DNA of 35,632 nucleotides, from positions 1-35,632 of the forward strand of contig CANHEE010000018.1 of NCBI GenBank assembly GCA_947459655.1, in the 5' to 3' direction. The DNA comes from Lewinellaceae bacterium (GTDB lineage Bacteria > Bacteroidota > Bacteroidia > Chitinophagales > Saprospiraceae). The notes under the pieces were generated by a model. The model was not told where the DNA came from. It saw only the letters and a list, made by a program, of their open reading frames with translations, and did not search any database. Made by a program: the position numbers and the translations under genes. Of the stretch, positions 16,957-35,632 are shown in pieces (the stretch's first letter is position 1; each line of letters starts with the position of its first letter).

Positions 16957-18153
16957 ATGACTGGTTTAATCATTTTGTTGTGCATTGTAATGCTGGCGAT
17001 TGTTATCATCCAGATTGGAAAGGTAACAGAACTGACAGCTCAGATTCGCGGTGAAAAAGACGCACAGAAGGAAAGTAACGAGTGGAACTCCAAAGGATTA
17101 TTGATTTTCGGTGCTGTTTTCCTTATTTTCTGTGTGGTTTCAGCGTCCTATTACAGAGATGATATGCTATGGTATGGTGTGAATGAAAGTGCGTCAGTAG
17201 AAGGTAGTTCTATTGATAATCTATTCAACATCACGCTGATTTGTACCGGTATCGTTTTCTTTATCACGCACATTCTGCTTTTCTGGTTTTCATACAAATA
17301 CCGTGGTCGTGAAGGGCGTACAGTATTGTATATGCCTCATGACAATCGTCTTGAGATGATCTGGACGGCAGTTCCGGCGGTGGTGCTTACTTTTTTGGTC
17401 ATTGCTGGTCTGGACACGTGGAATGATGTCATGGCAGATGTCAAGGAAGGAGAAGATTACATTGAAATAGAGGCCAACGGAATGCAGTTTGCATGGAATC
17501 TTCGTTACCCTGGTCCTGATGGAAAATTGGGTGCCAGAGATTACAAGAGAATCACAGCTTCTAATCCTTTTGGCCAGGATTTTACTGATCCGAAAGGTTT
17601 GGATGATTTTTACCCGGACGAAATTGTTTTACCGGTAGGTAAAAAAGTACGGGTACGTATTACTGCAAGAGACGTATTGCACAATTTCTATCTTCCACAT
17701 TTCCGTACAAAGATGGATGCGATCCCTGGTATACCAACTTACTGGGTATTTACGCCGAAAATAACTACGGAAGAATACCGCCAAATGTTGGCTAAATCTG
17801 ATGAGTGGAATGAGAAGATGGATCCAAGTGATCCGGAAAGTAAAACCAGGGCAGAAATGTTTAATTACGAACTTGCCTGTGCAGAGTTATGTGGTAAGGG
17901 TCACTATTCCATGAGAAGAGTGGTTCGCATTGTTTCTCAGCAGGAGTACGAAGATTGGTTGAAAAAGCAGCAGTCCTGGTATGCGAACAACGTACACAAT
18001 AAAGGAGGAAAAGTGGTCATCAACGGAAAGGAGGAAAGTGAAGATCCGTTTGAAGGAAAGGTAACTCCTGTAGATGTCGTTAAAGACAGCACCAGCACAG
18101 CAGTAACCGTTAAAAAAGACAGTACAGCGATAGCTGCTCCGGTAAAAAAATAA
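16957..18153 (+). CDS. coxB: Cytochrome c oxidase subunit II (CuA subunit)
   Basis: Predicted 398-aa subunit that accepts electrons from cytochrome c at a binuclear CuA centre. All CuA ligands are visible: His242, Cys308, Glu310, Cys312, His316 and Met319, the last five inside Cys-Ala-Glu-Leu-Cys-Gly-Lys-Gly-His-x-x-Met. Four hydrophobic helices (about 2-24, 48-67, 88-113, 132-155) precede the cupredoxin domain, two more than in classical subunit II. There is no C-terminal CXXCH, so this is aa3 rather than caa3 type, and the electron donor must be another protein, presumably ActA or ActE. The C-terminal ~50 residues are a Lys/Thr/Val-rich tail without known fold. Confidence 0.96.
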   Translation: MTGLIILLCIVMLAIVIIQIGKVTELTAQIRGEKDAQKESNEWNSKGLLIFGAVFLIFCVVSASYYRDDMLWYGVNESASVEGSSIDNLFNITLICTGIVFFITHILLFWFSYKYRGREGRTVLYMPHDNRLEMIWTAVPAVVLTFLVIAGLDTWNDVMADVKEGEDYIEIEANGMQFAWNLRYPGPDGKLGARDYKRITASNPFGQDFTDPKGLDDFYPDEIVLPVGKKVRVRITARDVLHNFYLPHFRTKMDAIPGIPTYWVFTPKITTEEYRQMLAKSDEWNEKMDPSDPESKTRAEMFNYELACAELCGKGHYSMRRVVRIVSQQEYEDWLKKQQSWYANNVHNKGGKVVINGKEESEDPFEGKVTPVDVVKDSTSTAVTVKKDSTAIAAPVKK

Positions 18154-18258
18154 TTGCACTTGGAGTAAGCCTAATGTTGGTATCGTACAGATGTTAAAAT
18201 CAGGTTCAATAATAACAATTAACAGACTATTTTGTCAAATAAGATAAATTTTTCTAAA

Positions 18259-20112
18259 ATGGCATACGTAACTGAAACCGGCTACAACGAAGAGGTTCTG
18301 ATTAAGGAAAACGGACTAAATGATCATTTTCATGATCACCATCATGGAGATAAATTCCAGTCAAATTTTATCACGACCTATATTTTCAGCCAGGATCACA
18401 AGATGATTGCCCGTCAGTTTTTAATTACGGGTATGTTTTGGGCAATAATTGGTGCAGCGATGTCAATTGTTTTCCGTCTGCAACTTGGTTTTCCAGAGGA
18501 GAATATGGCTTGGCTTAGACCAATTCTTGGTAAGTGGATTACTGTTGATGAAGCAGGAATGGGTCGTCTAGCACCTGAGTTTTACTATGCTCTGGTAACG
18601 ATGCACGGAACCATTATCGTATTCTTTGTATTGACTGCGGGATTAAGTGGTACTTTTTCGAACCTGCTTATTCCTTTGCAGTTGGGTGCACGCGACATGG
18701 CATCAGGTTTTCTGAATATGTTGTCCTATTGGTTCTTTTTCCTTTCCAGTGCAGTAATGTTGTATTCCCTTTTCCTTAGCACTGGTCCTTTCAGTGGAGG
18801 ATGGACGGCTTATCCGCCATTGTCAGCACTACCTCAGGCTTCTACGGGATCTGGAACAGGTATGACCTTATGGTTACTGAGTCTGACTTTCTTTGTGGTT
18901 TCGGTATTGTTGGGTGGTATCAACTATGTTACTACAGTATTAAACCTGCGCACAAAAGGTATGACACTATGGAGAATGCCGCTTACCATTTGGGCTTTCT
19001 TCCTGACGGCTATTATTGGTATCTTGTCTTTCCCGGTACTTGTCTCAGGGTTCTTCCTGTTAATGTTTGATAGAGGTTTGGGTACCTCATTCTATCTCTC
19101 AGAAATATTCATCGGAGGAAAGGCGCTTGAGAATGTAGGTGGGTCGCCGATTTTATATCAGCACCTTTTCTGGTTCCTCGGTCACCCGGAAGTATATATC
19201 ATTATCCTTCCTGCGATGGGATTGGTATCTGAAGTGCTTTCGGTACATGCACGCAAACCAATTTTTGGTTACAAGGCCATGGTGATGTCTATGTTGGCAA
19301 TCGGATTTTTGTCATTCATCGTTTGGGCGCACCACATGTTCATGTCGGGTGTTAATCCGTTTATTTCGAATTTCTTTGTGTTGTTCACACTTATTATCGC
19401 TGTGCCATCAGCGGTGAAAGTATTCAACTGGATTGCCACTCTCTTTGGTGGTAACATACGATTCAATTCACCGATGTTGTTTGCAATCGGTTTCGTGTCT
19501 TTGTTTATTTCAGGAGGTCTTACAGGTATTTTCCTTGGTAACTCGGCTATTGATATTCCGATGCACGATACTTACTTTGTAGTTGCACACTTCCATATTG
19601 TGATGGGTATTGCTGCGTTCTTTGGAATGTTTGCTGGCGTTTATCACTGGTTTCCAAAGATGTTCGGTCGTTTCATGAATGAAATGATGGGGAAAATTCA
19701 CTTCTGGGGTACCATTGCGGGAGCGTATGCTATTTTCTGGCCTATGCATTATCTTGGCATGGCCGGTGTCCCTCGTCGTTATTACAGATTTGATACTTTT
19801 GAGGCATTCAAGCACTTCGAAGATACCAATAAATTCATCACTGTAGCCGCGATTATTGTTTTCGCATTGCAGATAGTTTTTGTAATCAACTTTTTCTACT
19901 CTATTTTCAATGGTAAAAAGGTTACGGATGCAAATCCTTGGGGTGCAACAACCCTTGAGTGGACTACTCCGATTGAACCTGGCCACGGAAACTGGGAAGG
20001 AAATCTTCCTGCTGTTGAGCGTTGGCCATATGATTATGGTAAAAACGGACGTGAATTTATTCCGCAGTGGGAACCTCTGGCAGCTGGTGAACAGGATGGT
20101 GGCAACCATTAA
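18259..20112 (+). CDS. coxA: Cytochrome c oxidase subunit I (heme a, heme a3/CuB)
   Basis: Predicted 617-aa catalytic subunit of a heme-copper oxidase that reduces O2 to water and pumps protons. Start taken at ATG 18259; a TTG nine codons upstream is in frame but less likely. Ligands visible: His116 and His446 for heme a, His444 for heme a3, His309, His358 and His359 for CuB. Gly-His-Pro-Glu-Val-Tyr (His309, Glu311, Tyr313) carries the cross-linked Tyr and the D-channel Glu that define A1-type oxidases; Lys339 in Gly-Tyr-Lys-Ala-Met fits the K channel. The N-terminus has a cluster of five His between residues 23 and 29. The C-terminal ~60 residues are soluble with a Trp-Thr-Thr-Pro motif. Confidence 0.97.
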   Translation: MAYVTETGYNEEVLIKENGLNDHFHDHHHGDKFQSNFITTYIFSQDHKMIARQFLITGMFWAIIGAAMSIVFRLQLGFPEENMAWLRPILGKWITVDEAGMGRLAPEFYYALVTMHGTIIVFFVLTAGLSGTFSNLLIPLQLGARDMASGFLNMLSYWFFFLSSAVMLYSLFLSTGPFSGGWTAYPPLSALPQASTGSGTGMTLWLLSLTFFVVSVLLGGINYVTTVLNLRTKGMTLWRMPLTIWAFFLTAIIGILSFPVLVSGFFLLMFDRGLGTSFYLSEIFIGGKALENVGGSPILYQHLFWFLGHPEVYIIILPAMGLVSEVLSVHARKPIFGYKAMVMSMLAIGFLSFIVWAHHMFMSGVNPFISNFFVLFTLIIAVPSAVKVFNWIATLFGGNIRFNSPMLFAIGFVSLFISGGLTGIFLGNSAIDIPMHDTYFVVAHFHIVMGIAAFFGMFAGVYHWFPKMFGRFMNEMMGKIHFWGTIAGAYAIFWPMHYLGMAGVPRRYYRFDTFEAFKHFEDTNKFITVAAIIVFALQIVFVINFFYSIFNGKKVTDANPWGATTLEWTTPIEPGHGNWEGNLPAVERWPYDYGKNGREFIPQWEPLAAGEQDGGNH

Positions 20113-20177
20113 TTGGTTTCTCGAGCAGAAGTGGAAGAAAAAAGTGGAATTTAATCGCAATTAACAGTCAAAGGTAA

Positions 20178-21065
20178 GTGGTAACAAAGATAAATCTGTT
20201 GCTTATATTAAGACAGAAAATAGCTGACTACAAGATGTTAGTAAAGTTCGGTCTGAATATTGTGGTTGTGGTATCTGCAATTGCAGCCTATCTGACAACG
20301 ATAACAGGTTCTGTCGACTGGTCAAAAGTACTCACTTTGGGAGTAGCCGGTTTCCTTATCACAGGAGCTGCCAATGCGCTGAATGAAGTTCTGGAAAAGG
20401 ATTACGACAAAATAATGAATAGGACTTCAAACCGGCCTCTTGCAGCCGGAAGAATGACTACTTCTGAGGCGGTGCTTGCAGCTGGATTGATGAGTTTAGC
20501 GGGTTTGTCATTCTTGGCATTGTTTAATCCACTTACGGTATTTCTTGGGTCGTTATCACTGATCAGTTACGCGTTCATTTATACGCCGCTGAAGCGTGTT
20601 TCTCCTATCGCCGTATTGGTGGGAGCTGTACCGGGAGCTTTACCTGTTTTAATAGGCAGTGTGGCTGTAAGCGGTCATCTGACAACTTTGTCAATAGCTT
20701 TGTTTGCAATCCAATTTCTGTGGCAGTTCCCGCATTTTTGGGCAATAGCCTGGGTGGCGGATGAAGACTACAAGAGAGCCGGATTTAATCTGTTGCCTTC
20801 CAAAAGTGGAAGACTTGATGAAAGCGTTGGATGGAATGCGTTTGTATACACAGCTTTTTTGATCCCGGTTGGATGTGGACCATATGCACTTGGATACACT
20901 GGCGTTTGTTCAGCAATTGTATTGGTTTTACTGGGAGTAGTTTTTGCGTTTTATGCTTTTATGTTGTACAAAAATTGCAGCAGAGAGGCCGCGAGAAATC
21001 TGATGTTCAGTTCATTTTTTTATTTGCCCATAGCGCAATTCGCCATGGTATTTGATAAACTTTGA
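20178..21065 (+). CDS. cyoE: Protoheme IX farnesyltransferase (heme O synthase)
   Basis: Predicted 295-aa membrane enzyme of the UbiA family that adds a farnesyl chain to heme b, the first step to heme a for the neighbouring oxidase (also called ctaB). The diagnostic loop Asn-Glu-Val-Leu-Glu-Lys-Asp-Tyr-Asp-Lys-Ile-Met-x-Arg-Thr, followed by Asn-Arg-Pro-Leu, is present, and a second loop has Asp-Tyr-Lys-Arg-Ala-Gly-Phe. About nine helices. The start is GTG 20178, because family homology (Lys-Ile-Ala-Asp-Tyr) begins before the first ATG at 20235; an AAGG lies just upstream. Heme A synthase (ctaA) is not in this window. The stop is 5 bp before the next start. Confidence 0.93.
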   Translation: MVTKINLLLILRQKIADYKMLVKFGLNIVVVVSAIAAYLTTITGSVDWSKVLTLGVAGFLITGAANALNEVLEKDYDKIMNRTSNRPLAAGRMTTSEAVLAAGLMSLAGLSFLALFNPLTVFLGSLSLISYAFIYTPLKRVSPIAVLVGAVPGALPVLIGSVAVSGHLTTLSIALFAIQFLWQFPHFWAIAWVADEDYKRAGFNLLPSKSGRLDESVGWNAFVYTAFLIPVGCGPYALGYTGVCSAIVLVLLGVVFAFYAFMLYKNCSREAARNLMFSSFFYLPIAQFAMVFDKL

Positions 21066-21070
21066 TTATC

Positions 21071-21655
21071 ATGAGTACTGTAGTACAAAACCAACCGATG
21101 CGCAGCAATAATAAAATTCATCCGAAAAAGTTCGGGTTGTATATTTCTTTTGCCAGCATAATGATGATGTTCACCGGTCTAACCAGTGCGCATATTGTAC
21201 GTCAGTCTGCCGGTAATTGGTTAGAATTCAAAATACCGCCGATTTTCTTTATCAGTACGGTTGTAATTTTGCTAAGTAGTGCGACGATACACCTTTCCTA
21301 TAAGAGTTTTTTGAAGGGTAGGGAGCAGCAGTACAAATGGTTGATGGTTTTATCAGCAGTGTTGGGTTTTGCTTTCATTGTACTTCAGTACGAAGGCTGG
21401 CAACAGTTGAACGCTATTGGTGTCGACTTGAAAGGAAATCCATCAGGATCATTTGTATATGCTATTTCAGGTATTCATGCAGCTCATGTTCTTGGAGGTA
21501 TTGGAGCCATCGCAGTTGCGCTACTGCATGCGTTTTCATTGCCATTTAAAGTAACACCAGTTAGGAAGTTGAGGTTTGAGCTTACTGCTCAATACTGGCA
21601 TTTTGTAGACTTTCTATGGGTTTATCTGATAGTTTTTCTGGTAATGCAGCATTAA
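21071..21655 (+). CDS. Cytochrome c oxidase subunit III-type protein (first copy, short form)
   Basis: Predicted 194-aa membrane protein with about five helices, as in short bacterial subunit III. The region Gly-Ile-His-Ala-Ala-His-Val-Leu-Gly-Gly and the ending Tyr-Trp-His-Phe-Val-Asp-Phe-Leu-Trp-Val match the subunit III family. Subunit III stabilises subunit I and helps supply protons to the D channel. Start ATG 21071 is 5 bp after the heme O synthase stop; an in-frame TTG at 21062 would overlap that gene. Bacteroidota oxidase operons commonly encode two such proteins, and this is the shorter one. Confidence 0.9.
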   Translation: MSTVVQNQPMRSNNKIHPKKFGLYISFASIMMMFTGLTSAHIVRQSAGNWLEFKIPPIFFISTVVILLSSATIHLSYKSFLKGREQQYKWLMVLSAVLGFAFIVLQYEGWQQLNAIGVDLKGNPSGSFVYAISGIHAAHVLGGIGAIAVALLHAFSLPFKVTPVRKLRFELTAQYWHFVDFLWVYLIVFLVMQH

Positions 21656-21692
21656 GTTGCTCAAAAATTAGTAATAAATAATAAATAACATA

Positions 21693-22547
21693 ATGGCTTC
21701 AGTAGATACTCATGTTGGGCACGATGTGCAGCAAGAAAATTGGGGTGGCGGTGCAGAACCGTTCAAGGCGAGTTATGGTAAATTGATGATGTGGTACTTT
21801 TTGGTATCGGATGCATTCACGTTTGCTGGTTTCTTAATTGCTTATGGAACATTGCGTTTCAGCAGCATGAGTTGGCCTTTGCCTGATTTCGTTTTCGCCA
21901 AGATTCCTTTTTACTCAGGTGAAGCACCTTTGATTTTCGTAACATTCATGACTTTTGTCCTGATCATCAGTTCTGTAACAATGGTGAGAGCGGTACAGGA
22001 AGGTCATCATGGCAATAAAAAGGGTGTTGTGTTCTGGATGTTGCTGACTATTCTTGGAGGTCTTACCTTTCTTGGTTGTCAGGCGTGGGAATGGACTACC
22101 CTAATTAAAGGAGAAAACGTTAGTGTGACGAGAAATCCATTTGGTAGACATACCGAAGATGGTGTTTACCTTGATGCCAGTGGTAACGAAACAGCAGAAA
22201 CATTTAAGGTAGGTGATTCTTATCTGATTCATGGTCATGAGCACAATGGTCAGGTGGAATTTGATTTCAAAAAGTACAAGGTCACCAGTGGTCCGGATGC
22301 AGGTAAAGTTGCTCAATTGGAATTTGGTCCGAAGGCATTTGGTGCGTTGTTCTTTTTCATCACAGGTTTCCACGGTTTCCACGTGTTTTCAGGGGTCGTC
22401 TTTCTGTTTGTCATTATGCTGAATGCAGCGAGCGGTTTGTATCACCGAAGGGGCAATCATTATGAGATGATTGAGAAAATTGGACTCTACTGGCACTTTG
22501 TAGACTTAGTATGGGTGTTTGTATTCCTCGTTTTCTACCTGCTCTAA
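21693..22547 (+). CDS. coxC: Cytochrome c oxidase subunit III (second copy, with a soluble insert)
   Basis: Predicted 284-aa membrane protein with subunit III hallmarks: Trp-Tyr-Phe-Leu-Val-Ser-Asp in the first helix, Gly-Phe-His-Gly-Phe-His-Val-Phe-Ser-Gly, and the ending Tyr-Trp-His-Phe-Val-Asp-Leu-Val-Trp-Val. Between helices there is a hydrophilic insert at about residues 139-212, rich in charged residues with a His-Gly-His-Glu-His patch, longer than the loop expected in canonical subunit III. It lies 37 bp after the short subunit III gene. Both copies probably assemble with the same subunit I, though one could be structural only. Confidence 0.92.
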   Translation: MASVDTHVGHDVQQENWGGGAEPFKASYGKLMMWYFLVSDAFTFAGFLIAYGTLRFSSMSWPLPDFVFAKIPFYSGEAPLIFVTFMTFVLIISSVTMVRAVQEGHHGNKKGVVFWMLLTILGGLTFLGCQAWEWTTLIKGENVSVTRNPFGRHTEDGVYLDASGNETAETFKVGDSYLIHGHEHNGQVEFDFKKYKVTSGPDAGKVAQLEFGPKAFGALFFFITGFHGFHVFSGVVFLFVIMLNAASGLYHRRGNHYEMIEKIGLYWHFVDLVWVFVFLVFYLL

Positions 22548-23115: not shown

Positions 23116-24165
23116 ATGAAAAATACCATACAAGAATTCGCCCTAACCAGATATTCTCATGGCGCCGGATGTGGATGTAAAATAGCACCAAAAGTACTGG
23201 ATAGTATCTTAAAAACGGAGGAAGCCAAAATTCACTTCAGCAAATTGCTTGTCGGTAATGAGGAGCGTGATGATGCTGCGGTTTTTGACCTCGGAGATGG
23301 AACTGCCATCATCAGTACAACAGATTTTTTCATGCCTATCGTGGATGATCCTGAAGATTTTGGAAGGATTGCATCCGTAAATGCTATCAGCGATATTTAT
23401 GCCATGGGTGGAACTCCGTTGCTTGCCATAGCAATATTAGGCTGGCCGATAAATTTACTACCTGCAGAGGTAGCAAACAGAGTTGTGGAAGGAAGTAGAA
23501 AAGCTTGTGCCGAGGCAGGAATACCGCTGGCAGGCGGGCACTCGATTGATAGTCCTGAACCCATTTTCGGACTGGCAGTAACCGGTAGGGTAGATATAGC
23601 ACATTTGAAAAAAAATGGTGGCGCAACGTCCGATTGTAAACTTTTTCTAACCAAGCCGCTCGGTGTTGGTGTTTTTACTACAGCTCAGAAAAAAGAAAAA
23701 CTAAAACCGGAACACGCACATATTGCCCCGGAAAGTATGAAAAAACTCAACAATGTCGGTGCGGCGTTTGGGAAGCTACCTTACATTAAGGCTATGACCG
23801 ATGTGACGGGATTTGGTCTGCTCGGGCATCTGTCTGAAATGTGTGAGGCAAGTGATTTGTCGGCAGTAGTTGATTTTGGTAAAGTTCCGGTGTTGGAAAA
23901 GGAGGCACTTGATTACTACCTTTCAGAAAAGTGTATCCCGGGAGGTACTATTCGAAATTTTGATAGCTACGGACACAAAATAGCGCCCATTTCCGACTAC
24001 CAAAAGCACATACTTTGTGACCCTCAGACAAGTGGTGGATTGCTTGTTGCAGTAAGTGGAGATAAAGTCATAGAGTTTACTGCTTTTGCTTCAACCCTTG
24101 GATTTGATCTCGAGCCGCTGGGTTATTTCATTGAGAAGGCAGATTACCTAATCTGTGTGAAATGA
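23116..24165 (+). CDS. selD: Selenide, water dikinase (selenophosphate synthetase), Cys form
   Basis: Predicted 349-aa cytoplasmic enzyme that makes selenophosphate from selenide and ATP. It starts at ATG 23116 and matches the E. coli enzyme in length and along its whole sequence, including Ser-His-Gly-Ala-Gly-Cys-Gly-Cys-Lys (active-site Cys19 and Lys22, equivalent to Cys17 and Lys20), Asp-Asp-Ala-Ala-Val, Thr-Thr-Asp-Phe-Phe, Ala-Gly-Gly-His-Ser-Ile-Asp and Asp-Pro-Gln-Thr-Ser-Gly-Gly. The catalytic position is Cys, so selenocysteine is not needed to make it. No selA, selB, selC or mnmH is in the window. The product could serve selenocysteine synthesis or 2-selenouridine in tRNA; the window cannot decide. 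It converges on the giant repeat-protein gene. Confidence 0.97.
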
Positions 24166-24238: not shown

Positions 24239-27200
24239 CTACCATTTCATCAGCATAATATCACCGGTATAATTTTTCACCTCGCCATCGGTGAACTCTA
24301 CTTGTGCATGGTAAGTGAATACTGCTGGGTTCATCAGATTGCCTCTGTAGTATCCATTCCAACCCCGTTTTTCATCCTGCGACTCGGCTTTGGTGAAATT
24401 TTTATCTTCATATACCAGCGTACCCCAACGATCATAAATTCTAAAGAAGTTGACCTTGACCGTCTCATCTCCGAGATAGATTCTGATGAGGTCGTTGTTT
24501 CCATCTACATTTGGTGAAAAGGTATTGGGGATATACACTCTTCGAACCTTGTTAACTATAATCTGAATGATGTCAGATGCTGAGCATCCCTCTTCATCCC
24601 ATACAGTTACACGGTAGTTTCTGGTGACATTCGGTTTAGCAATCGGAAACTGACAGGTATCGCAGCTTAATCCTTTGCTTGGACTCCAAAGAATTTTAGA
24701 CATCTGAAACTTGGTAGCCGGCGTGATGACCACACTGTCACCGTAATTGATCGTAATGTCTGGTCCAAGTGATACCTGAATAGAGTCACTATCCGCAACA
24801 TTTGGCTTGGCAGTCCAGTTACAGTTTCTATTGGAAGACTCACGAATGACGACCTGGTGCTCACCCGGAGAGAGGTTTCTGATCATGTATGGAATACCAG
24901 GGATGTCGCCTTTGTCCGATCCGTCGAGATCGTATGTAAACTTACCACTTCCGCCTTCAATACTCTGAATGGTTATGGTTCCCAGTCCTGTAAGACAGGA
25001 TGCAGCTTGTGCGACCATTAGTATCTTCAAAGGCTTCGGTTCAGTTATTTCATATTCACCCGAAGCAGTACACCCAATGGCATCTGTTACGGTTACTCTA
25101 TATTTTCCTGAGGGAAGTCCTTCAATTGTACCGGTGTTTTTACCATCAGACCAAACAAATGTGTACGGTGCGAGCCCTATGGTACTTAGTAAGATTGAAC
25201 CATCTGTCAAGCCGTTGCAACTGATGTTTTTCACCTGAGCATCAAGGGAGAGCGAACCGAATGACAGTTTGTACGTACCCAGAAAAGGTGGACAGCTTCC
25301 GGTAGGAATGCTCGTTGAAATAATGCGGTACGTTGTAGTGTTTTGAGGTGAAACAATGATGGTGTCACCATCATTTATTCCTTTTACTGTAAAAGTATTT
25401 CCATTATCGTCCCCATATACCATATCAAAGACACCTGCAAAGCCGCTGACATTAATTTTAAGTGCGACGGGTAGTTTTGAACATATGCTCGTAGGGCCAC
25501 TTAAGGTAACGCTTACAGAATCCCTGAAATAAAATTTTATGTTGACTGTGCTGTCACAGCCTCTATTGGCCGCTTTCGCGAGTATCTCAACCCCTTCAGG
25601 TCGGGAAATGTCATACCTTCGTCCGTTAACCAACCTGAATTCGCTATGGCAAAGTGTGTCTGACAGTGATCCTGTCGTATTCACTTTTATCACGTCGATG
25701 CCTGCTGATGAGGTACAGCCGTTCAGGTCTGTCACGGTTACTTTGTAATTTCCGGGAACTGAGGTGGTAATGGTTTGGCTCGCCGCTCCTGTAGACCAGC
25801 TGTATTTCTGGTAGCCGACGCCGGCACTAAGTGTATTGCTGTTTCTGCCGCAAATAACGTCTGAGCCGGAAATAGTAGGAGGTGTTATGGAGGACTGCTG
25901 AACGATTACCGATGCGGTTCCGGAACAACCTGTGCTGGTGCTGACAGTTATGTTGTATGTGCCGGGCGTATTGACCTGAATACTGTTTTTTGTTTCATTT
26001 GTGGACCATAGGTAATTATCGAAAAAAATCTGTACGGAAAGCGTGGTGCTTTTTCCGGAGCATACAGACAAGACCCCATCAATCTTTGGATTCAGGTTGC
26101 CCTGAATGGGAATTGTGGTATTATCAATTCCTTTACAACCATTCATATCTGTTACTGTCACGGTATGAGTTGATCCTGCTTTTGCATAAATGCTGCTGGT
26201 TGAACTTCCGTCAGACCACAGATAAGAGCTGAACGGATCAGTGAGGCTTATTTTGACGGAGTCTAGCGGACATATGGCTTTGTTCCCAGTAATTCGTGGA
26301 ACAGGGTTTGGGTTGACTGTGACATTGATTGTCTGTGTAGCAGTACAACCATTTGTATCAGAAATGGTGACACTATAATTACCTGCCTTAGCAACTGTTG
26401 TACCTGCGTTGAGGTCGCCGTTGCTCCAGCTGTACATACTGAAAGGAAGACTGGTGGACAAAACAGTGCTGGCTCCATCACAGATCAGAGTGTCGCCCAA
26501 TATGGCAAATGCGGGAACCGGACTCCTCACTACTGAGATGGAAGATGAACCTGTGCACAACCCATTGCTGACTGTTACGGCGTAGTTTTTTTCTGAAGAA
26601 GCCTGAATAGTCCTCGTGGTTTCGCCAGTATCCCAAATATAGGTGCTGAAACCGGCTCCTGCATCGAGGGTCGTGCTTTTACCATTGCAAAAAGACGGTG
26701 TGCCTGAGATTGAGAATACCAGATTGCCGTTTGACGTGATTGCCTTGGAATCACTGCCTTTACATCCTCTTGCATCGGTCACAGTCAGGGATACAGTTCC
26801 CACCTGACTGATAATGATGTTTTTTGCGGTTTCACCGGTTGACCAGAGATATGAGTTGTATACATTTCCCGCATCCAATAGTGTGCTGGAACCGGTGCAT
26901 ATGGAGGTTGAACCTGTAATATTCGGTTTCGGATTTGGAAATTCGGTAATATTTTTCGTTGCCGTAGCCGTACACCCATTTCCATCCTGAACAGTTACCT
27001 GATAGGTGGCCGTGCCGCTTGCATTGATGGTTGCTGCTACCGCCCCTGTAGACCAGCTGTAACTTGAAAAAGTTGGGGTAGTAGCAAGTGTCAAGTTAGT
27101 TCCCTGGCAGTAGGAAGCATTGCCGCTAATGTTCACTACAGGTTGGTTGTAGGCATTAATGGTTACACCTGCAAGTCCCGTGCAACCATTTGAATTGGTA

Positions 27201-30200
27201 GCGGTAATGGTATAGTTACCTTGTCCGACCGTAATAGAAGGACTGTTGCTGCCAGTTGACCATTTATAGCTGCTGTAGTTGCCTGTGATACCCAGTGTTG
27301 TATTTTTCTGTGGACAGACATTGAGACTTCCTGTGAAAGCAATATTGACGGGATCATCGCTGATGATTTTTGTAGCCAACGCCTTACAGCCATTCAGGTC
27401 GGTGACTGTAACTGTGTGGGTACCACTTCCCAGAATTGCAGAAGCTGTGGTTTGTCCATCTGACCATAGGTATGCACTAAATATGCCACCACTTACGCTC
27501 AAATTGCCTTTGCCTCCGACGCATACCGCAGAGACACCATTAATTTGTGGCGTTGGCGAGGGGTAGCCATTGATGATAACGCTATTCGAGGCCGTACAAC
27601 CATTTACATCGGTCACAGTAAGAGTAAAAGTACCCGACTGCGTAGCAAAAATGCCTGGTGTGTTCTGGTTATTGCTCCATTGGTATGAATTATAACTGGT
27701 AGGGCTTGCCGTTAAAGCAGTTCCGGAACCCGGACAAAAACTATTGTTGCCACTTATACTGACAGTTGGCGACGGAAACTGACTTACAGTTACTGAAACT
27801 GATCCTGTACAGCCGGTTGCAGCATTACTTACGGTAACTGAGTAGACGCCTGCGGAAGTAACAGTCGTGCTTTGTGTATTTGCTCCATTAGACCAACTAT
27901 ACGTGCTGAATGGGCTGCTCACAGTGAGGGAGACCGAGCCGTTTCCACATATTTTTCCAACCGGTGAAAGCGTAGGGGTAAGCTGTGCGCCTGGATTGAC
28001 CGTTTTAGTGTCTGTACTTGTACAACCGGTCGGGTCTGTTACCGTTACCGAATAGGTTCCCGGACCATTTATTGCCAATGTTGGGCCGGAAGAACCATCA
28101 TTCCATTGGTACGATGAATAGGGGTTATTCAGTGTCAGATTGGAGTTAAACCCACTGCAGATGTTTGCTGGAGCAGTAATGGATACAGGAGCAACGCTTC
28201 CTGCAGTAACTGTAAATGACTTTAACTGTGTGCAACCTGACAGGTCTGTAATCGTAACTGTGTAACTACCCGGATTTGTAACCGTGATGGAATTTACGGT
28301 ATTTCCCATTGCACCATTTGACCATTTGTAATAGAAGAATCCGCTGCTGGCACTAAGGTCTACACTGCCTGAGTAAGGTGCTGAAGTGCCGCATAATTTC
28401 CCCGTCTGGGTGGTAGAGGCTGCATTGGGAACAGATAAAATAATATTTGTGTTTCCGCCCAGGTAGCAGGTTGACGGTGACGGTGTAAAAGTAACATTGT
28501 AGGTTCCGGAGGAGAGTGCCGTACCATTAAAAGTCGGCGAAGCTGTAACACCTGGTCCAGACCATGATCCTGCGGGGACCGGACTAGGACTGCTAATAAG
28601 GTTATTCAGGTTCAGGCTATTTCCCGCACACAGGGTTGCTGTATTAAATGTCATCGGTTGTGGGGCCTGTACATTGACTGTAACATTTGCAGGGTTTGAC
28701 TGACACGAATTGTCTGAAACATTTGCTATGCCGACCACTACAGAATAGGTATAAGAGCCCGGCGTGGTTGGTGCCTGTGCCGAGTTGACCACAACGGTGT
28801 GTGGAAGTGTATTATTGGTTGTCATACTGCTATATCCACTTGGTCCTGTCCAGGTAAATTTGGCCAGAAAGGGGAATGGAGTGGGAAGCGGTATCGTTCC
28901 AAATATGGGTACGGTGACAGTTCCACTGGTCACCGTAAGGTTTATAGGTTGCCCGGGACAGATATTCACAGGTGTAGTCACCTGAAACGTGGCAGGAGGA
29001 GGATATCTAATGATATCAAAATTGTCTGACCACTTACATCCACCGGGATCAGTTACAGTTACCGAGTAGGATGATGTGGTGAATGGATTTGGAATCACCG
29101 GAGCAGGTGTGGTTGCCGTGGGTGTAGGACTGCTGGTAGAACTAAGACCAGGTCCGACCCACTGATAAGTTGATCCTGCCGGAGGGGGAGGAGTACCGAC
29201 AACCGCGAGCGGGACGGGTATCCCACCACAAACCGTTATATCCGGTATCGCAGTGTAGTTTGGAGCTCCGTTTACAGTAATGTCTTTTGTCGCTGTTGCA
29301 GAACACCCTGGTCCTGTGGTAACGGTAACACTGAAGGTATAAGTTCCTGCCGAGAGGTTAAGGCTGACCCCCGGTGGATTATATGCTGTTGAATTGTAGC
29401 CGGCAGGACCTGACCAAGAATAGGTAGCACCTGCAATCTGGGTGGTAGTTAAAGAGGGCGTTATTGTTTTTGGAACCGAAGCACAAAGGATGCCATTTGG
29501 GCTGAGCGCAATGGACTGTGGTGGTGGTGGAGTACATGGGAGGGCAGGAAAGCAATCGTTTCCTCCATCTCTACTGGTTGCCACGCCGGCGGGATCGAGA
29601 GTAACATTAGAGCCATCTGTTCCAGGAAAACCTCGTACATCATAAGTAACACTATAGGTACAGCCTCCAACAGTTATAGTAATTGTCTTTGGGCAGGGTG
29701 CAGGCGCACCGGGACAGGATGCATTAGGATTATTGAGAAAAAAGCCATTTGAGGATGTGTAATCTCCAGAAACCACATAGATGGGCCCCTGTCCACAAAG
29801 GTTGCTAAGGTTTTGCGTAAACGTCAGTCCATGATTGGAAACGACTGCAATTACCTTTGCATTTGCCGGAATTATACCACCTGGTGGAGAAACAAATACC
29901 GGAGGTGCGCAGGCAGGCATCGCCATGTTATTCAGTTGAGCGGCTATGGCAGGATCTGCAGCGAAATTACTAGAAGCAGGCGGTCCAGAAGTGGAGCCGG
30001 TCATTTGTATTGAGTTGGCATTAATGGGCGAACTTCCATTTGTTATGGTCACGAATTCGTTCCACCCTTCCTGACTGGTGCAGGCATCAATAATGATTTT
30101 ATTCAAAACAGGCCCTCCGGGGCAACCTGAGGGCGATACAGTCCACGTTTGTGACAGCGCAAACTGTATAGCAAATACAGCAGCAAATGAGCAGGCAATA

Positions 30201-30211
30201 AGCTTCTTCAC
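24239..30211 (-). CDS. Giant secreted Ig/SprB-like repeat protein with T9SS type B (gliding-motility-associated) C-terminal domain, copy A
   Basis: Predicted 1990-aa cell-surface protein. The start is GTG 30211, giving Met-Lys-Lys and a clean signal peptide ending Ala-Leu-Ser-Gln. Residues ~30-215 weakly resemble a lamin-tail-like domain. Four diverged Ig-like modules (~225-600) follow, then thirteen ~70-residue repeats (~600-1500) built on Tyr-x-Trp-Ser-x-Gly, Tyr-x-Val-Thr-Val-Thr-Asp-x-Asn-Gly-Cys and a second Cys, suggesting a disulfide per repeat. A distinct Cys-containing module with Gly-Cys-Asp-Ser follows, then one canonical SprB-type repeat ending Val-Thr-Asp-Ala-Ile-Gly-Cys. The last ~100 residues are the CHU_C/type B sorting domain (Pro-Asn-Thr-Phe-Ser-Pro-Asn-Val-Asp-Gly, Asp-Arg-Trp-Gly, Gly-Trp-Asn-Gly). 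Family knowledge points to an adhesin or gliding-related surface fibre; the ligand is unknown. A 90-bp gap separates it from paralogue B. Confidence 0.92.
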   Translation of the reverse strand: MKKLIACSFAAVFAIQFALSQTWTVSPSGCPGGPVLNKIIIDACTSQEGWNEFVTITNGSSPINANSIQMTGSTSGPPASSNFAADPAIAAQLNNMAMPACAPPVFVSPPGGIIPANAKVIAVVSNHGLTFTQNLSNLCGQGPIYVVSGDYTSSNGFFLNNPNASCPGAPAPCPKTITITVGGCTYSVTYDVRGFPGTDGSNVTLDPAGVATSRDGGNDCFPALPCTPPPPQSIALSPNGILCASVPKTITPSLTTTQIAGATYSWSGPAGYNSTAYNPPGVSLNLSAGTYTFSVTVTTGPGCSATATKDITVNGAPNYTAIPDITVCGGIPVPLAVVGTPPPPAGSTYQWVGPGLSSTSSPTPTATTPAPVIPNPFTTSSYSVTVTDPGGCKWSDNFDIIRYPPPATFQVTTPVNICPGQPINLTVTSGTVTVPIFGTIPLPTPFPFLAKFTWTGPSGYSSMTTNNTLPHTVVVNSAQAPTTPGSYTYSVVVGIANVSDNSCQSNPANVTVNVQAPQPMTFNTATLCAGNSLNLNNLISSPSPVPAGSWSGPGVTASPTFNGTALSSGTYNVTFTPSPSTCYLGGNTNIILSVPNAASTTQTGKLCGTSAPYSGSVDLSASSGFFYYKWSNGAMGNTVNSITVTNPGSYTVTITDLSGCTQLKSFTVTAGSVAPVSITAPANICSGFNSNLTLNNPYSSYQWNDGSSGPTLAINGPGTYSVTVTDPTGCTSTDTKTVNPGAQLTPTLSPVGKICGNGSVSLTVSSPFSTYSWSNGANTQSTTVTSAGVYSVTVSNAATGCTGSVSVTVSQFPSPTVSISGNNSFCPGSGTALTASPTSYNSYQWSNNQNTPGIFATQSGTFTLTVTDVNGCTASNSVIINGYPSPTPQINGVSAVCVGGKGNLSVSGGIFSAYLWSDGQTTASAILGSGTHTVTVTDLNGCKALATKIISDDPVNIAFTGSLNVCPQKNTTLGITGNYSSYKWSTGSNSPSITVGQGNYTITATNSNGCTGLAGVTINAYNQPVVNISGNASYCQGTNLTLATTPTFSSYSWSTGAVAATINASGTATYQVTVQDGNGCTATATKNITEFPNPKPNITGSTSICTGSSTLLDAGNVYNSYLWSTGETAKNIIISQVGTVSLTVTDARGCKGSDSKAITSNGNLVFSISGTPSFCNGKSTTLDAGAGFSTYIWDTGETTRTIQASSEKNYAVTVSNGLCTGSSSISVVRSPVPAFAILGDTLICDGASTVLSTSLPFSMYSWSNGDLNAGTTVAKAGNYSVTISDTNGCTATQTINVTVNPNPVPRITGNKAICPLDSVKISLTDPFSSYLWSDGSSTSSIYAKAGSTHTVTVTDMNGCKGIDNTTIPIQGNLNPKIDGVLSVCSGKSTTLSVQIFFDNYLWSTNETKNSIQVNTPGTYNITVSTSTGCSGTASVIVQQSSITPPTISGSDVICGRNSNTLSAGVGYQKYSWSTGAASQTITTSVPGNYKVTVTDLNGCTSSAGIDVIKVNTTGSLSDTLCHSEFRLVNGRRYDISRPEGVEILAKAANRGCDSTVNIKFYFRDSVSVTLSGPTSICSKLPVALKINVSGFAGVFDMVYGDDNGNTFTVKGINDGDTIIVSPQNTTTYRIISTSIPTGSCPPFLGTYKLSFGSLSLDAQVKNISCNGLTDGSILLSTIGLAPYTFVWSDGKNTGTIEGLPSGKYRVTVTDAIGCTASGEYEITEPKPLKILMVAQAASCLTGLGTITIQSIEGGSGKFTYDLDGSDKGDIPGIPYMIRNLSPGEHQVVIRESSNRNCNWTAKPNVADSDSIQVSLGPDITINYGDSVVITPATKFQMSKILWSPSKGLSCDTCQFPIAKPNVTRNYRVTVWDEEGCSASDIIQIIVNKVRRVYIPNTFSPNVDGNNDLIRIYLGDETVKVNFFRIYDRWGTLVYEDKNFTKAESQDEKRGWNGYYRGNLMNPAVFTYHAQVEFTDGEVKNYTGDIMLMKW
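25700..28410 (-). repeat. Thirteen in-frame ~210-bp tandem repeats in copy A
   Basis: The protein motif Tyr-x-Trp-[Ser/Asn/Asp] recurs about every 70 codons, thirteen times, from about residue 625 to 1465. Spacing between adjacent motifs was counted as 70 residues for one pair, and the whole span fits that period. Boundaries are approximate. Repeats are clearly diverged at DNA level, so this is an old array rather than recent slippage. Confidence 0.85.
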
Positions 30212-30238
30212 GGAAAAAAATTTTTAATACAATCCGGT

Positions 30239-30257
30239 CGGGAACATTGTATTCCCG
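30239..30257. repeat. Hairpin between the two giant repeat-protein genes
   Basis: CGGGAA (30239-30244) pairs with TTCCCG (30252-30257) around a 7-base loop. It lies in the 90-bp gap between the stop of copy B and the start of copy A. A run of T occurs about 20 bases further along the minus strand, too far for a standard intrinsic terminator. I see no clear -33/-7 promoter in this gap, so the two genes may be co-transcribed. Confidence 0.45.
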
Positions 30258-30301
30258 GTTCATGTGCTTTTCAGGTCTATATTTTGGTGGCCGAATCCAA
30301 A

Positions 30302-33300
30302 CTACTGTTTCAGTAGCATAAAATCTCCGGTGTAGTTTTTGGTTTCACCATCAGTAAATTCAACCTGTGCAGAATAGATGTACACTCCGGGGTTAAGCAA
30401 TTTTCCTCTGAAGTAACCATTCCACCCACGTCTGTCATCCTGTGCATCTTCTTTAGTAAAATCACGATCCTCGTACATCAGTTCTCCCCATCTATCGAGT
30501 ATTCTGAAGTAATTAACTTTTACGGTTTCATCACCGAGATAGATTCGGAACAAATCGTTGTTTCCGTCAACGTTGGGACTAAAGACGTTTGGTATGAACA
30601 CCCTTCTGATCTGGTTGACGATAATCTGCACCTCATCTGTGGCAAGACAGCCGTTTTCATCCCATACTTTCACAATATAGTTTGAAGTAGCCTTGGGTTT
30701 GGAGATAGTAAACTGACAAGTGTCGCAATTGAGATAGGTGGCAGGAGTCCACTGAATTTTGCTCATCTGGAAATTGGTCACTGGTGTCAGCACTATGCTG
30801 TCACCATAAACCAGCGTAATATCTGGGCCAAGATTGACAGTCAAGGCTTTACCTTGGGCTACATTGATATTACCGGACCAGTTGCATTCATCTGCTGATG
30901 CTTCCCTGATGGTAACGATATAGTTGCCTGCGCCCAGATTTGGTATTTTAAAAGGAGTTACATTGATGGGATTAAAAATTGTGCCATCTATACTATATAC
31001 AAAATTGCCGGAACCCCCTTTGATTGAATCAATGGTAATGCTACCACTGGAAGGGTTGCAGGTAAGTGAATCTGAAGAAAGGGTTGCAGAAATAGGCAGC
31101 GGTTCGCTGATGCTGATGTCTGCTGAGGCAGTGCAACCAATGGCATCTGTTACTGTGAATTTGTAAACTCCTGTTTTGAGGTCAGTAATTCCTGCAGTTG
31201 AGGCACCGAAGTCCCAGCTGTAATTGAAAGGAGGAATACCTTTTCGGACCTGTATATCAGCAGAGCCATTGTTTTTTCCGCTACAAGTAATCTGGGACAC
31301 CTGTGTACTGATTTCAATTGGTGAGACAGTCACTTTTGCCGCACCGAGCACAAGTGTACAATTGCCATTGGCGATACTAACTGTGCTGATTCTGTAAATC
31401 TTTGTTTTGTCTGGATTTACTGTAAGGGTATCTCCGTTTTTGACATTGGTCAGATTGATTTTCCCACCATCACTGTCTTCCACGACAGCATTAAAGGCGC
31501 CGTTGTATCCGGTCACATTCAGCACAAGTTTGACAGGTGAAGCTGAACAGACAGTCTTATCTCCATCAAATCCAATGTTGATATCGGGCCTAAAAAACAG
31601 CTGTATGGTCAGGATGCTGTCGCACCCACCGCCGGCTGCACCGATGAGCGTTTCTGTACCGGAGGATTTGCTGAAATCATAGCGATTGCCGTTGAATACT
31701 CTGAAATCACTTTTGCAAATTGTATCTCTCAAGCTGCCGGTAACATTTTTGAGTTGTAAAAAGGCGCTGTTGCTACCTTTGCAACCCGCAGCAGTGGTGA
31801 CTGTAACGGTGTATTTTCCGGGACTGGAAATGTTTGTTTTCTGTGCTTTGTCGCCGTTAGACCATAGGTATGTGTTGTATCCTGATCCTGCGTCAAGGGT
31901 GGTCGTTCTGCTTCCACAAATAAAAAGGTTACCCGTTATCAATGGTGCCGGGTTGGGGTTTTCACTGATGGTGATGTCTTTCGAACCGCTACAGCCAGAG
32001 GAGGAAGTGACGGTTACGCTGTATTTGCCAGCTTTGTTGACGGTTATCTCAGGTGTCGCCTGCTGGTCCGACCACTTGTAGGATGCGTAGACTGCATCCA
32101 GGCCCAACACTACAGAGTCACCCTTGCAGAAAGATGTTGGTCCCGTGATTAGCGGATTCAGGTTGCTTTTTACATCAACATCCTTGGAAGCAGAATTAAT
32201 GCAGCCGTTGTTATCGGTCACACTTATTTCGTATTTTCCGGGTTGATTGATCTCGATGGTATCTGTTGCTTTACCATTGGACCATCGGTATGCTTTGTAT
32301 TTTTCAGACAGGCTGAGTATGGTTTTTTCCCCGAAGCAGATGGTGGCCTGACCAACTACCGTCGGTACAGGCAGCGGATTGACCACTAATTTTACACTAT
32401 CGCGGTTTGTGCATCCTTTAGCATCCTTCACATTGACGTAGTAGCTGCCGCTTGTTGAAGAAGATATAGAATTACCGGTTTCACCTGTAGACCAAAGATA
32501 ACTGGCGTAACCGGTTTGAACGGAAAAGTTTACAGACTGGCCTGCGCACAAGGCGGTGTCTTTGCTGGTATTCAAGACCGGAAGTGGATTCATTTTTACC
32601 TGGATAGAATCTACGCCTTTACATGCACCATTGTTTACTGTCACTTTGTAGGTGCCACCTTTGTTGATGATGATTCCTGTTGCACTTTGGCCAGATGACC
32701 ATTTGTATCCGCCAAATGCTCCATTAACGCTCAGGTGCAAGGTGTCGTTTTCACAAAATTCTTTTTTACCGGTAATCTGAGGCTTGAGGTCCGGTTCTTT
32801 GGACAGCAAAAAGCTTGTGCTGCCGGTGCACCCGTTTAGGGCAGTAACCGTCACAAAGTAGCTTGTAAAAGATCTTGCAGCAAGGTCTTTTTTTGTCGAA
32901 CCATCCGACCATTTATAGGCGGAATAATTTTCCGTTAGGGAAAGCAGAGATGTATCACCTGCGCAGATACTGTTCTTTCCAATGATTATTGGTTTTGGAC
33001 TGACTGCAGATGTTATGGTTATTTGATTTGTCGCGGTGCATCCATTGATATCCTGAACAGTCACACTGTATGTATTTGCAGCAGCTACATTGATACTTTG
33101 GGTGAATTGTCCTGTACTCCAGCGGTAAATACTGAATGGAATATTGGTGGACAATGCACTTGTTGTTCCTTCACAGAAGGATGCATTCCCAGTTATGGAT
33201 ACTGTAGGTAAGGAGTTTTTAGTAACAATCACCGAAGAATTGCCCGTACAGGAACCGTTGCTCACGGTCACGGAATAGGTATTAGAGGAAGTTACTATGA

Positions 33301-35632
33301 TTGCCTGAGTTGTTTCTCCTGTACTCCACAAATAGGAACTGAATCCGCTTCCTGCATTCAGTGTGGAGGAAAGGCCGTCGCAAAATGAAGTGTTCCCGCT
33401 GATGTTAAAGGCAAGTGAACCACTGTTTATTATATTTTTCACATCTGTACCTATGCATCCCTTTGAGTCTGTTACACTTACTGAAACAAAACCAGGCTGG
33501 TTCGTAGTTATGGTCTGGCCTGTTGCACCAGTAGACCATAGATAAGAATTAAAACCGGGTCCGGCGTCCAAGGTAGTAGAACTACCGGCGCAGATGGAAG
33601 TCGAACCTGTGATCGAAGGTGTCGGGCTTGGGAAATAAGATGTGAGCTTAGAAACGGACGCTGAGCAGCCATTGATGTCGGTCACCGTAAGCGAGTAGTT
33701 CTGCGCCAATGTTACAGTCGTGGAGGGACTTACGCTACCATTGCTCCACTGGTAATTTGCAAAGTTTGCAGGGCTAGCAGAAAGTGTCGTTCCGATACCG
33801 CCAAAACAAAACAATAGATTTCCTGTAATGTCGACTGTCGGATTTGGAAACTGCTGCACGGTTGCTGTGGCAACAGCGGTACATCCTGTTGCCGTATTGG
33901 AGACGGTCACGCTATAGTTTTGTCCACTATTTACCGTTACTGCAGCACCGTTGCCAAGTCCGTTTGACCAGCTGTATGTATCAAAGATTCCGGTAAGGCT
34001 GAGCAAGACAGATCCGTTGCCACAAATTTTTCCAAAAGGTGAAAATGTTGGATTCAAGGGAGCAGCAGCAGCGATGGTTTTGGATGTTGTTGCCGAGCAG
34101 CCATTGTTATCTGTAACTGTCACACTATACGTTCCCGGATTGATGATGGCAAGTGAACTTGCTGTCGAATTGTCATTCCAGAGGTATGAGCTAAAGGAGG
34201 AATTTAGTGTTAGGGTAGCATTTACGCCACTGCAAAGAGATCCCGGTCCGGTAACTGATACGTTCGGACTCGCAAAACTGCTCACGGTCAATGATTTGAC
34301 TGCTGTACATCCCGAGGCATTGGTCACTGTCACGGTATATGTGCCCGGGGCACTCACAGTCACAGCATTGCCGCTGCCGCTCACTCCTGTTGACCAATTG
34401 TATGTAGTAAAACCTGCAGTTGCAGTTATTGCTGTTTGACCCGAAAATGGTGCTGTCAGACCACAAATGGTCCCGCTCTGTGAAAGAGTGACATTGGGAG
34501 GTGTGCTAATGCTTACATTGGTGGAAGTAGCAGCCAGGCATGCTGCGGCACTTGGTGTAAAAGTAACGCTATAGGATCCGGGCGACAGTACGCCCGCATT
34601 GAATGTGGGACTTGGACCGACCCCGGTTCCGGTCCAGCTGCCTACCGGAGCAGGACTGGGTGAGGTGATTAATGTTGTAAGGTCGACAGTTTGTCCCTGA
34701 CATATTGCCGTGGGGGCGAGGGTAATACTCCCTCCCGGCTGCACATTTACGGTCACATCGATAGGAGACATGCTACAACTTGGGTGTGAATACCCCGGAA
34801 TACTTGGCGTTAATTTGTAGATGTAAGGACCTCCCACTCCCGGGATTTGTGCGCCCGGAACACTTGTCAGATTGGGTAGTATATCAGTAGTTTGATTGGT
34901 TGTAAAACCATTCGGCCCAGTCCAAGTGAATTTGACAGGAATAGGTAATTTCGGATTGGGCGCTGAGGGTATGCTAATCGGGCCGTTCCAGTTCATGGTG
35001 GCACTATTGATGTTCAGATTCAGTGCTTGACCCGTACACAAGTTTACAGGATTGGCAACACTGAGCATCGGCGGCATGGGAACTGTCGTCAGTTTGAAGG
35101 TATCCAGCCACCTGCAGCCGTTGGTTTCAGTAATGGTAACCGAGTAGTTATTTGTGGTTCCGGTAGCCGGGGATACCGGCAGCTGAGGTGTCAGCGTAGG
35201 GCTGGGAGCAAAAATTGATGATAGTCCGGCACCATTCCACAGGTAGCCTGCTCCAGCTGAAGGCCCAGGAGATCCACCTACCGATAAAGACAAAGGTGAA
35301 TTGCCACAGACGGTCAAATCGGGCAGCGGTGTAAAATTAAATGCAGGGCTCACAGTGACCGTAACGGTAGACATGGAGAAACAACCACCGGGTGCTATTA
35401 CTTTGACCTTGAAAATGTTGTTTCCTGCTGGTAGTCCCGAGACAGATGGGTTTGCCAATGTTGAATTGTATCCATTCGGACCTGTCCACATATAGGTTGA
35501 TCCGGCCGGTGCATTGGTCGTGGTTGTGAAATTGACCGTCTGCGAGGGTGTAACACATGGGCCACCGCTGACCGTAGCAGTTAAGGTAGGCGATACGCAA
35601 CCCGGGGGGAAGCAACCGGCACCCGTATTGTA
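30302..35632 (-). CDS. Giant secreted Ig/SprB-like repeat protein with T9SS type B C-terminal domain, copy B (5' end beyond right edge)
   Basis: At least 1776 codons are present; the frame is open through the last base, so the start lies outside. Alignment to copy A at a shared Cys-Phe-Pro motif implies about 213 missing N-terminal residues, so the full protein is probably near 1990 aa. The order is the same as in A: Ig-like modules, thirteen ~70-residue repeats, a Gly-Cys-Asp-Ser module, one SprB-type repeat and the CHU_C/type B sorting domain. By my eye alignment the last 101 residues are identical to copy A at about 75% of positions. An in-frame ATG at 35491 is internal (Met-Trp-Thr-Gly-Pro-Asn within an Ig-like module) and is not the real start. 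Function is inferred only as a T9SS-exported surface protein. Confidence 0.92.
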   Translation of the reverse strand, partial: YNTGAGCFPPGCVSPTLTATVSGGPCVTPSQTVNFTTTTNAPAGSTYMWTGPNGYNSTLANPSVSGLPAGNNIFKVKVIAPGGCFSMSTVTVTVSPAFNFTPLPDLTVCGNSPLSLSVGGSPGPSAGAGYLWNGAGLSSIFAPSPTLTPQLPVSPATGTTNNYSVTITETNGCRWLDTFKLTTVPMPPMLSVANPVNLCTGQALNLNINSATMNWNGPISIPSAPNPKLPIPVKFTWTGPNGFTTNQTTDILPNLTSVPGAQIPGVGGPYIYKLTPSIPGYSHPSCSMSPIDVTVNVQPGGSITLAPTAICQGQTVDLTTLITSPSPAPVGSWTGTGVGPSPTFNAGVLSPGSYSVTFTPSAAACLAATSTNVSISTPPNVTLSQSGTICGLTAPFSGQTAITATAGFTTYNWSTGVSGSGNAVTVSAPGTYTVTVTNASGCTAVKSLTVSSFASPNVSVTGPGSLCSGVNATLTLNSSFSSYLWNDNSTASSLAIINPGTYSVTVTDNNGCSATTSKTIAAAAPLNPTFSPFGKICGNGSVLLSLTGIFDTYSWSNGLGNGAAVTVNSGQNYSVTVSNTATGCTAVATATVQQFPNPTVDITGNLLFCFGGIGTTLSASPANFANYQWSNGSVSPSTTVTLAQNYSLTVTDINGCSASVSKLTSYFPSPTPSITGSTSICAGSSTTLDAGPGFNSYLWSTGATGQTITTNQPGFVSVSVTDSKGCIGTDVKNIINSGSLAFNISGNTSFCDGLSSTLNAGSGFSSYLWSTGETTQAIIVTSSNTYSVTVSNGSCTGNSSVIVTKNSLPTVSITGNASFCEGTTSALSTNIPFSIYRWSTGQFTQSINVAAANTYSVTVQDINGCTATNQITITSAVSPKPIIIGKNSICAGDTSLLSLTENYSAYKWSDGSTKKDLAARSFTSYFVTVTALNGCTGSTSFLLSKEPDLKPQITGKKEFCENDTLHLSVNGAFGGYKWSSGQSATGIIINKGGTYKVTVNNGACKGVDSIQVKMNPLPVLNTSKDTALCAGQSVNFSVQTGYASYLWSTGETGNSISSSTSGSYYVNVKDAKGCTNRDSVKLVVNPLPVPTVVGQATICFGEKTILSLSEKYKAYRWSNGKATDTIEINQPGKYEISVTDNNGCINSASKDVDVKSNLNPLITGPTSFCKGDSVVLGLDAVYASYKWSDQQATPEITVNKAGKYSVTVTSSSGCSGSKDITISENPNPAPLITGNLFICGSRTTTLDAGSGYNTYLWSNGDKAQKTNISSPGKYTVTVTTAAGCKGSNSAFLQLKNVTGSLRDTICKSDFRVFNGNRYDFSKSSGTETLIGAAGGGCDSILTIQLFFRPDINIGFDGDKTVCSASPVKLVLNVTGYNGAFNAVVEDSDGGKINLTNVKNGDTLTVNPDKTKIYRISTVSIANGNCTLVLGAAKVTVSPIEISTQVSQITCSGKNNGSADIQVRKGIPPFNYSWDFGASTAGITDLKTGVYKFTVTDAIGCTASADISISEPLPISATLSSDSLTCNPSSGSITIDSIKGGSGNFVYSIDGTIFNPINVTPFKIPNLGAGNYIVTIREASADECNWSGNINVAQGKALTVNLGPDITLVYGDSIVLTPVTNFQMSKIQWTPATYLNCDTCQFTISKPKATSNYIVKVWDENGCLATDEVQIIVNQIRRVFIPNVFSPNVDGNNDLFRIYLGDETVKVNYFRILDRWGELMYEDRDFTKEDAQDDRRGWNGYFRGKLLNPGVYIYSAQVEFTDGETKNYTGDFMLLKQ
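31750..34475 (-). repeat. Thirteen in-frame ~210-bp tandem repeats in copy B
   Basis: The same Tyr-x-Trp-Ser / Val-Thr-Val-Thr-Asp-x-x-Gly-Cys unit as in copy A occurs thirteen times at a period of about 70 codons. Boundaries are approximate. The first four repeats align with the first four of copy A, but later ones align only after a register shift (see findings). Confidence 0.85.

Follow-up and report, generated by a model that had tools for sequence, protein, structure and literature searches.

Evidence for a register shift between the repeat arrays of two tandem giant surface proteins in Saprospiraceae

Introduction

Two neighbouring genes at the end of a contig from an uncultured Lewinellaceae bacterium (family Saprospiraceae in GTDB) encode giant proteins with the same number of repeats. 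The question raised by this locus is whether these repeats correspond one to one and, if they do not, why the totals agree. The window analysed here, 35,632 nucleotides in length, is one entire contig (C18, accession CANHEE010000018.1) of a genome assembly of 2.99 Mb in 175 contigs that is 99.8% complete (GCA_947459655.1).

Homologues were searched with two queries, the N-terminal 620 aa of A and the tail, the former in 398 genomes of the family and 299 of the order, and the latter in the 398 family genomes. In both searches, scoring covered the best 3-4 candidates of each genome, so a weak orthologue of A or B could escape notice. There were no genomes of the same genus among the relatives found.

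Layout of the two genes and their genomic context

Genes A and B are adjacent on the same strand, with a gap of 90 bp. The contig ends at 35632, inside B, so that about 217 N-terminal residues lie beyond it; the ATG at 35491 is not the start of B but falls within the gene. A similarity search of the genome did not recover the missing 5' end. The features are given below, with the units that follow the first one grouped by three (A2-A4, for instance, being A triplet 1, or AT1).

24239..30211, minus strand: gene A, predicted T9SS type-B surface protein of 1990 aa, with a GTG start, a hydrophobic N-terminal signal-like segment and an open frame
29522..30211, minus strand: A, N-terminal domain of ~230 aa, without Pfam match at E 0.5
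28412..29521, minus strand: A, pre-array Ig/PKD-like domains (PF22352, best stretch 260-313)
28193..28411, minus strand: A, unit 1; partner B1, 47%
27554..28192, minus strand: A, triplet 1 (A2-A4); partner B triplet 1, 55%
26933..27553, minus strand: A, triplet 2 (A5-A7); without demonstrable partner in B
26306..26932, minus strand: A, triplet 3 (A8-A10); partner B triplet 2, 54%; modelled as beta-sandwich domains
25676..26305, minus strand: A, triplet 4 (A11-A13); without demonstrable partner, 36% to BT4 (paralogue level)
25250..25675, minus strand: A, module with one 'TLC...GCDS' repeat and the adjoining Ig-like part
24548..25249, minus strand: A, SprB-type repeat and the tail domains after it (PF13573, 27.8 bits, cut-off 28)
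24242..24547, minus strand: A, CHU_C / T9SS type-B sorting domain (PF13585, TIGR04131); 75% identity to B
30302..35632, minus strand: gene B, tandem twin of A, 1776 aa visible, 5' end lost at the contig edge
34484..35632, minus strand: B, pre-array Ig/PKD-like domains, cut at the contig end
34268..34483, minus strand: B, unit 1; partner A1
33626..34267, minus strand: B, triplet 1 (B2-B4); partner A2-A4
32999..33625, minus strand: B, triplet 2 (B5-B7); partner A8-A10
32372..32998, minus strand: B, triplet 3 (B8-B10); without demonstrable partner in A
31742..32371, minus strand: B, triplet 4 (B11-B13); without demonstrable partner in A
31319..31741, minus strand: B, TLC...GCDS module; 42% identity to A
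30611..31318, minus strand: B, SprB-type repeat and tail domains (PF13573, 36.3 bits, cut-off 28); 48% identity to A
30308..30610, minus strand: B, CHU_C / T9SS type-B sorting domain (PF13585, TIGR04131)

In line with the original prediction, the modules come in the same order wherever the two proteins can be compared, the N-terminus of B lying beyond the contig. The thirteen repeats of ~70 residues claimed for each protein are indeed exactly 13 in A and 13 in B, as Y-x-W-anchored units of ~68-74 aa with two cysteines per unit. The pre-array domains are 43% identical between A and B over the comparable part, and both type-B sorting domains score above the curated cut-off of TIGR04131 (36.0 bits in A and 39.9 in B, cut-off 35). 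The number of lysines and arginines per unit climbs along the arrays (25676-28411 and 31742-34483), from 0-3 in early units to 3-5 in A11-A13 and 5-8 in B8-B13.

The genome encodes the T9SS translocon SprA (2276 bits) and 11 genes of the PorP/SprF family above the cut-off; there is no PorP gene within the window, beyond which, on the side of B, the assembly does not continue. The gene of the T6SS sheath protein VipB was not found in this 99.8% complete genome. Many more giant SprB/Ig-repeat proteins are encoded on contigs C45, C57, C64, C96, C33 and others; such proteins take up a large share of the 2.99 Mb genome and are often cut at contig ends. Elsewhere in the window, selD (23116-24165) lies tail-to-tail with gene A, and positions 3687-5474 encode a subtilase whose sorting tail is T9SS type-A-like (PF18962). 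Positions 7764-22547 hold cytochrome c, Fe-S-molybdopterin-type and NrfD genes followed by COX2, COX1, UbiA and COX3, and probably encode an alternative complex III with an aa3-type oxidase.

Age and relatives of the gene pair

The tails of A and B are 51% identical to each other, whereas other relatives reach 35-39% among the matches listed from the 398 family genomes. In a tree of 36 family tails A and B are sisters (SH-aLRT 99.8), and most of the named loci with a tail of this type are Saprospiraceae. The N-terminal 620 aa of A had no match outside its own genome among the best 3-4 candidates per genome of the 398 family and 299 order genomes. A third gene (G000:C96:6155-10636) has the N-terminal domain of A, with 45% identity over A 22-238, combined with another kind of array.

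At the fourfold-degenerate sites of aligned conserved codons, the identity of A and B is ~28%, where chance would give 26%, and no module stands out. Since these sites are near chance everywhere, the duplication is, by sequence, an old one, and recent homogenisation has touched no part of the pair. By tail similarity and tree, A and B are sister genes. An assembly error by collapse or duplication is unlikely, given an identity of just ~46% between the two genes, but many giant-protein genes of this genome run past contig ends.

Correspondence between the two repeat arrays

The first four units match in order (A1-B1 47%, A2-B2 54%, A3-B3 61%, A4-B4 46%), and the high values then move off the diagonal (A8-B5 60%, A9-B6 57%, A10-B7 44%, with A7-B7 at 51%). 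Paralogous units inside one protein are mostly 22-48% identical. A collinear alignment of units recovered the ten pairs originally proposed for all gap costs tried between 0 and 100, and the shifted pairing scored 770, versus 555 for the one-to-one pairing. In the maximum likelihood tree of the units, A1B1, A2B2 and A3B3 are sisters, as are A4B4 (94/41, not starred), A8B5 (95/76) and A9B6 (95/86), and A7, B7 and A10 group together (85/86). The tree of triplets joins AT1 with BT1 (95/94) and AT3 with BT2 (99/97). A strict pairing of Ai with Bi, against which the original prediction had been set, failed in this phylogeny, and for the middle triplets it was ruled out by the AU test (AT2+BT2, p = 0.023; AT3+BT3, p = 0.015).

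Hence the claim that A1-A4 are the counterparts of B1-B4 was borne out by matching, trees, and AU tests, while the claimed equivalence of A8-A11 and B5-B8 holds for A8-A10 and B5-B7 but not for A11 and B8, which are only 37% identical. The further pairing of A12-A13 with B12-B13 found no such support: at 36% (A12-B12) and 41% (A13-B13) these pairs are, like A11-B8, in the range of paralogues, with best partners elsewhere or tied. The three pairs were joined in no tree computed, and were picked in the alignment through collinearity rather than special similarity. Their 36-41%, compared with 44-61% in true pairs and 42-75% in the flanking modules, argues against simple orthology, though these units may have changed faster. 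Six units per gene lack a demonstrable partner, which leaves the idea of three extra units in A offset by a different three in B unproven. The comparison of units shows a real shift of register: unit 1 and two triplets are shared by A and B, and two triplets in each gene lack a demonstrable partner in the other.

A three-unit period in both arrays

The linker words start with L in units 3, 9 and 12 of A and in units 3, 6, 9 and 12 of B. We asked whether units of equal phase (modulo three) resemble each other more than other units do, excluding putative orthologous pairs; the test was done after the linker pattern had been noticed, and its p-values are to be read accordingly. Units in the same phase are more similar (permutation p = 0.0005, and 0.0002 with more pairs excluded, over all columns; p = 0.002 when A and B were permuted jointly), and no such excess was found by permutation for periods of 2, 4 or 5 units in these arrays. 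The three-unit period is thus weak but significant. It allows each array to be read as unit 1 followed by four triplets, so that the shift amounts to exactly one triplet and the agreement between 13 and 13 becomes one between 4 and 4, which is less remarkable.

The period might be structural rather than historical: if the domains twist along the stalk, every third unit would face the same way and keep its surface and linker residues, and a shift by three units would then keep the phase. The excess is strongest at the unit ends, i.e., at the linkers, and falls to p = 0.12 in the core (0.017 in the joint test), as such a reading would have it. However, a weaker signal survives the trimming of the linkers (p = 0.012), and we find a purely structural origin somewhat unlikely. 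The three-unit arrays of relatives do not have the phase of A and B, which also suits the structural reading. As an ancestral cassette in phase with A and B these arrays are not supported (p = 0.51), so the cassette is not traceable beyond the pair.

Origin of the private triplets and exchange between units

Neighbouring triplets do not pair within either gene (AU test, AT2+AT3, p = 0.023; BT2+BT3, p = 0.010), which rules out that the private triplets are recent local copies. An import from another giant protein of the genome was rejected as well, as no unit matches better there than in A or B. Near-identical DNA repeats or DNA tandem repeats were not detected in the two genes. The private triplets fit either a loss from a longer ancestor or an early gain with later divergence; for AT4, BT4 and the others the signal is too low to separate gain, loss, and fast-evolving partners.

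Gene conversion or recombination could also have moved units between A and B, with mosaics as a result. B7 looks like such a case, its first third resembling A7 and the stretch just after resembling A10, and the tree keeps these three units together. Yet the AU test favours neither A7+B7 nor A10+B7 over the other, and with 70 residues per unit the apparent mosaic may thus be noise; at synonymous sites, no stretch of the two genes looks recently exchanged. We therefore give this explanation very little weight, although an exchange long ago may have occurred. A search for gene conversion tracts had been proposed to decide the matter: none is recent, no module departing from the rest at the fourfold sites, whose near-chance identity rules out recent conversion between A and B. 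Of the suggested shuffling of units between the copies there remains a turnover of units, in blocks of three.

Fold, family and comparison with known systems

The structure model of A8-A10 consists of beta-sandwich domains (mean pLDDT 93.4); that of the post-array region was unreliable (pLDDT 46.5) and was left out of the reading. The sole PDB sequence match of A (E = 4e-24) and of B (E = 3e-51) is GhpA of Aureispira, which belongs to the Saprospiraceae, and the first seven Foldseek matches of the A8-A10 model are fragments of the GhpA stalk. The stalk domains of GhpA (grappling hook protein A, from Aureispira sp. CCB-QB1; PDB 9flp, 9fls, 9flu-9fly, 9g8b) are homologous to those of A and B. 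GhpA is a protein of 5898 aa that forms heptameric hooks acting with a T6SS in predation (PMC11205867). In contrast, A has 1990 aa, and its match lies essentially in the stalk (GhpA residues ~1456-4700, with no significant stretch in the first ~1200), with a weak C-terminal match in addition; the genome of A and B also lacks VipB. Given a match to the stalk only, a third of the length of GhpA, and no VipB, we call A and B putative surface proteins of the stalk type, whose fold is related to that of GhpA, rather than grappling hooks.

The mobile SprB-type surface adhesins of gliding Bacteroidota likewise have a type-B sorting domain and a SprB-type repeat near the C-terminus, the repeat of A scoring just under the Pfam cut-off, and their genomes, like this one, have SprA and PorP/SprF genes. 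They carry many SprB repeats, whereas A and B have one SprB-type repeat, together with a stalk of Y-x-W Ig-like units. Cargo of type B is anchored through PorP/SprF proteins (PMC11205867), and A and B would be secreted and anchored at the surface through their type-B domain. The best reading of the pair is that of ordinary fibrillar T9SS type-B surface proteins, in which the array would serve as a stalk.

In the periscope proteins SasG, Rib and Sgo_0707, tandem folded domains set the distance from the surface, as they may in A and B; their repeats, almost the same at the DNA level, differ in number from strain to strain, while the usual rule is that adjacent domains share <50% identity (PMC8201768). 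Unlike them, A and B have units that are mostly 22-48% identical, have no DNA tandem repeat, and fit the <50% rule. A similar layout is found in three giant Saprospiraceae/Bacteroidota proteins with a tail of the A/B type (L128:481-5103, L129:6440-10963, and L132:6350-11008). Ig units, GCDS repeats, tail, and CHU_C follow in the same relative order, and a SprB-type module is present in both classes, but the expanded module differs: the three proteins, from three species, have exactly 3 Ig and 14 GCDS units each (41-aa spacing), at 76% and 61% identity, versus 13 Ig and 1 GCDS in A and B. These identical counts indicate that diverged arrays can stay frozen. Such arrays can keep their unit number for long, by selection or because diverged repeats stop recombining.

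Equal totals and the history of the arrays

The equal totals invite the view that stalk length was selected, one triplet having been lost and another gained or retained as both proteins need the same reach. Both arrays do end at 13 although their contents differ, and unit counts were exactly conserved over a long divergence in the L128/L129/L132 class. However, the argument from A and B rests on one pair and, counted in triplets, on a match of four with four. The conserved counts of the related class come with a one-to-one alignment and may reflect no change at all, and elsewhere unit counts vary widely, from 3 (L128) to several tens; a loose count in the genome of A and B gave 36 units in the C45 protein, 40 in C57, and at least 23 in C64. 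Tandem T9SS pairs are common, and their lengths are either equal (798 and 795 in L164, 982 and 1003 in L140) or very unequal. We regard selection on total length as improbable, and the shared total of 13 is probably a coincidence rather than a proof of it. A compensated turnover, where selection held the stalk length constant while three-domain cassettes were exchanged, seems to us quite improbable; if it were true, the reach of a surface organelle would be conserved though its parts are not.

The history that we consider likely is an old tandem duplication of a surface-stalk gene, an early turnover of three-unit blocks, and then frozen arrays with a coincidental total. A giant T9SS type-B surface protein gene of Saprospiraceae would have been duplicated in tandem, in this lineage, to give A and B. 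In each protein, beta-sandwich Ig-like domains, every one with a conserved pair of cysteines able to form a disulfide, would make up a stalk that keeps the N-terminal part at a distance from the outer membrane, while the C-terminal domain would serve for export by the T9SS and for anchoring. The array would have been built in blocks of three domains. As long as units were similar enough to recombine, in-frame gains or losses of three units, different in each copy, would have shifted the register; recombination is the presumed cause of the shift. Later divergence would have frozen both arrays, and the total of 13 in both (1 + 4x3) would most simply be a coincidence on the coarse scale of triplets.

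Implications

A and B are a case of stalk repeats that changed register between duplicate genes though they are diverged and not near-identical, with a hidden period of three domains. Together with the frozen counts of the L128, L129 and L132 proteins, they offer a testable contrast to periscope proteins, namely whether stalk length evolves only while the repeats are alike. The comparison also ties a pair of Saprospiraceae surface proteins to the fold of the GhpA stalk of Aureispira.
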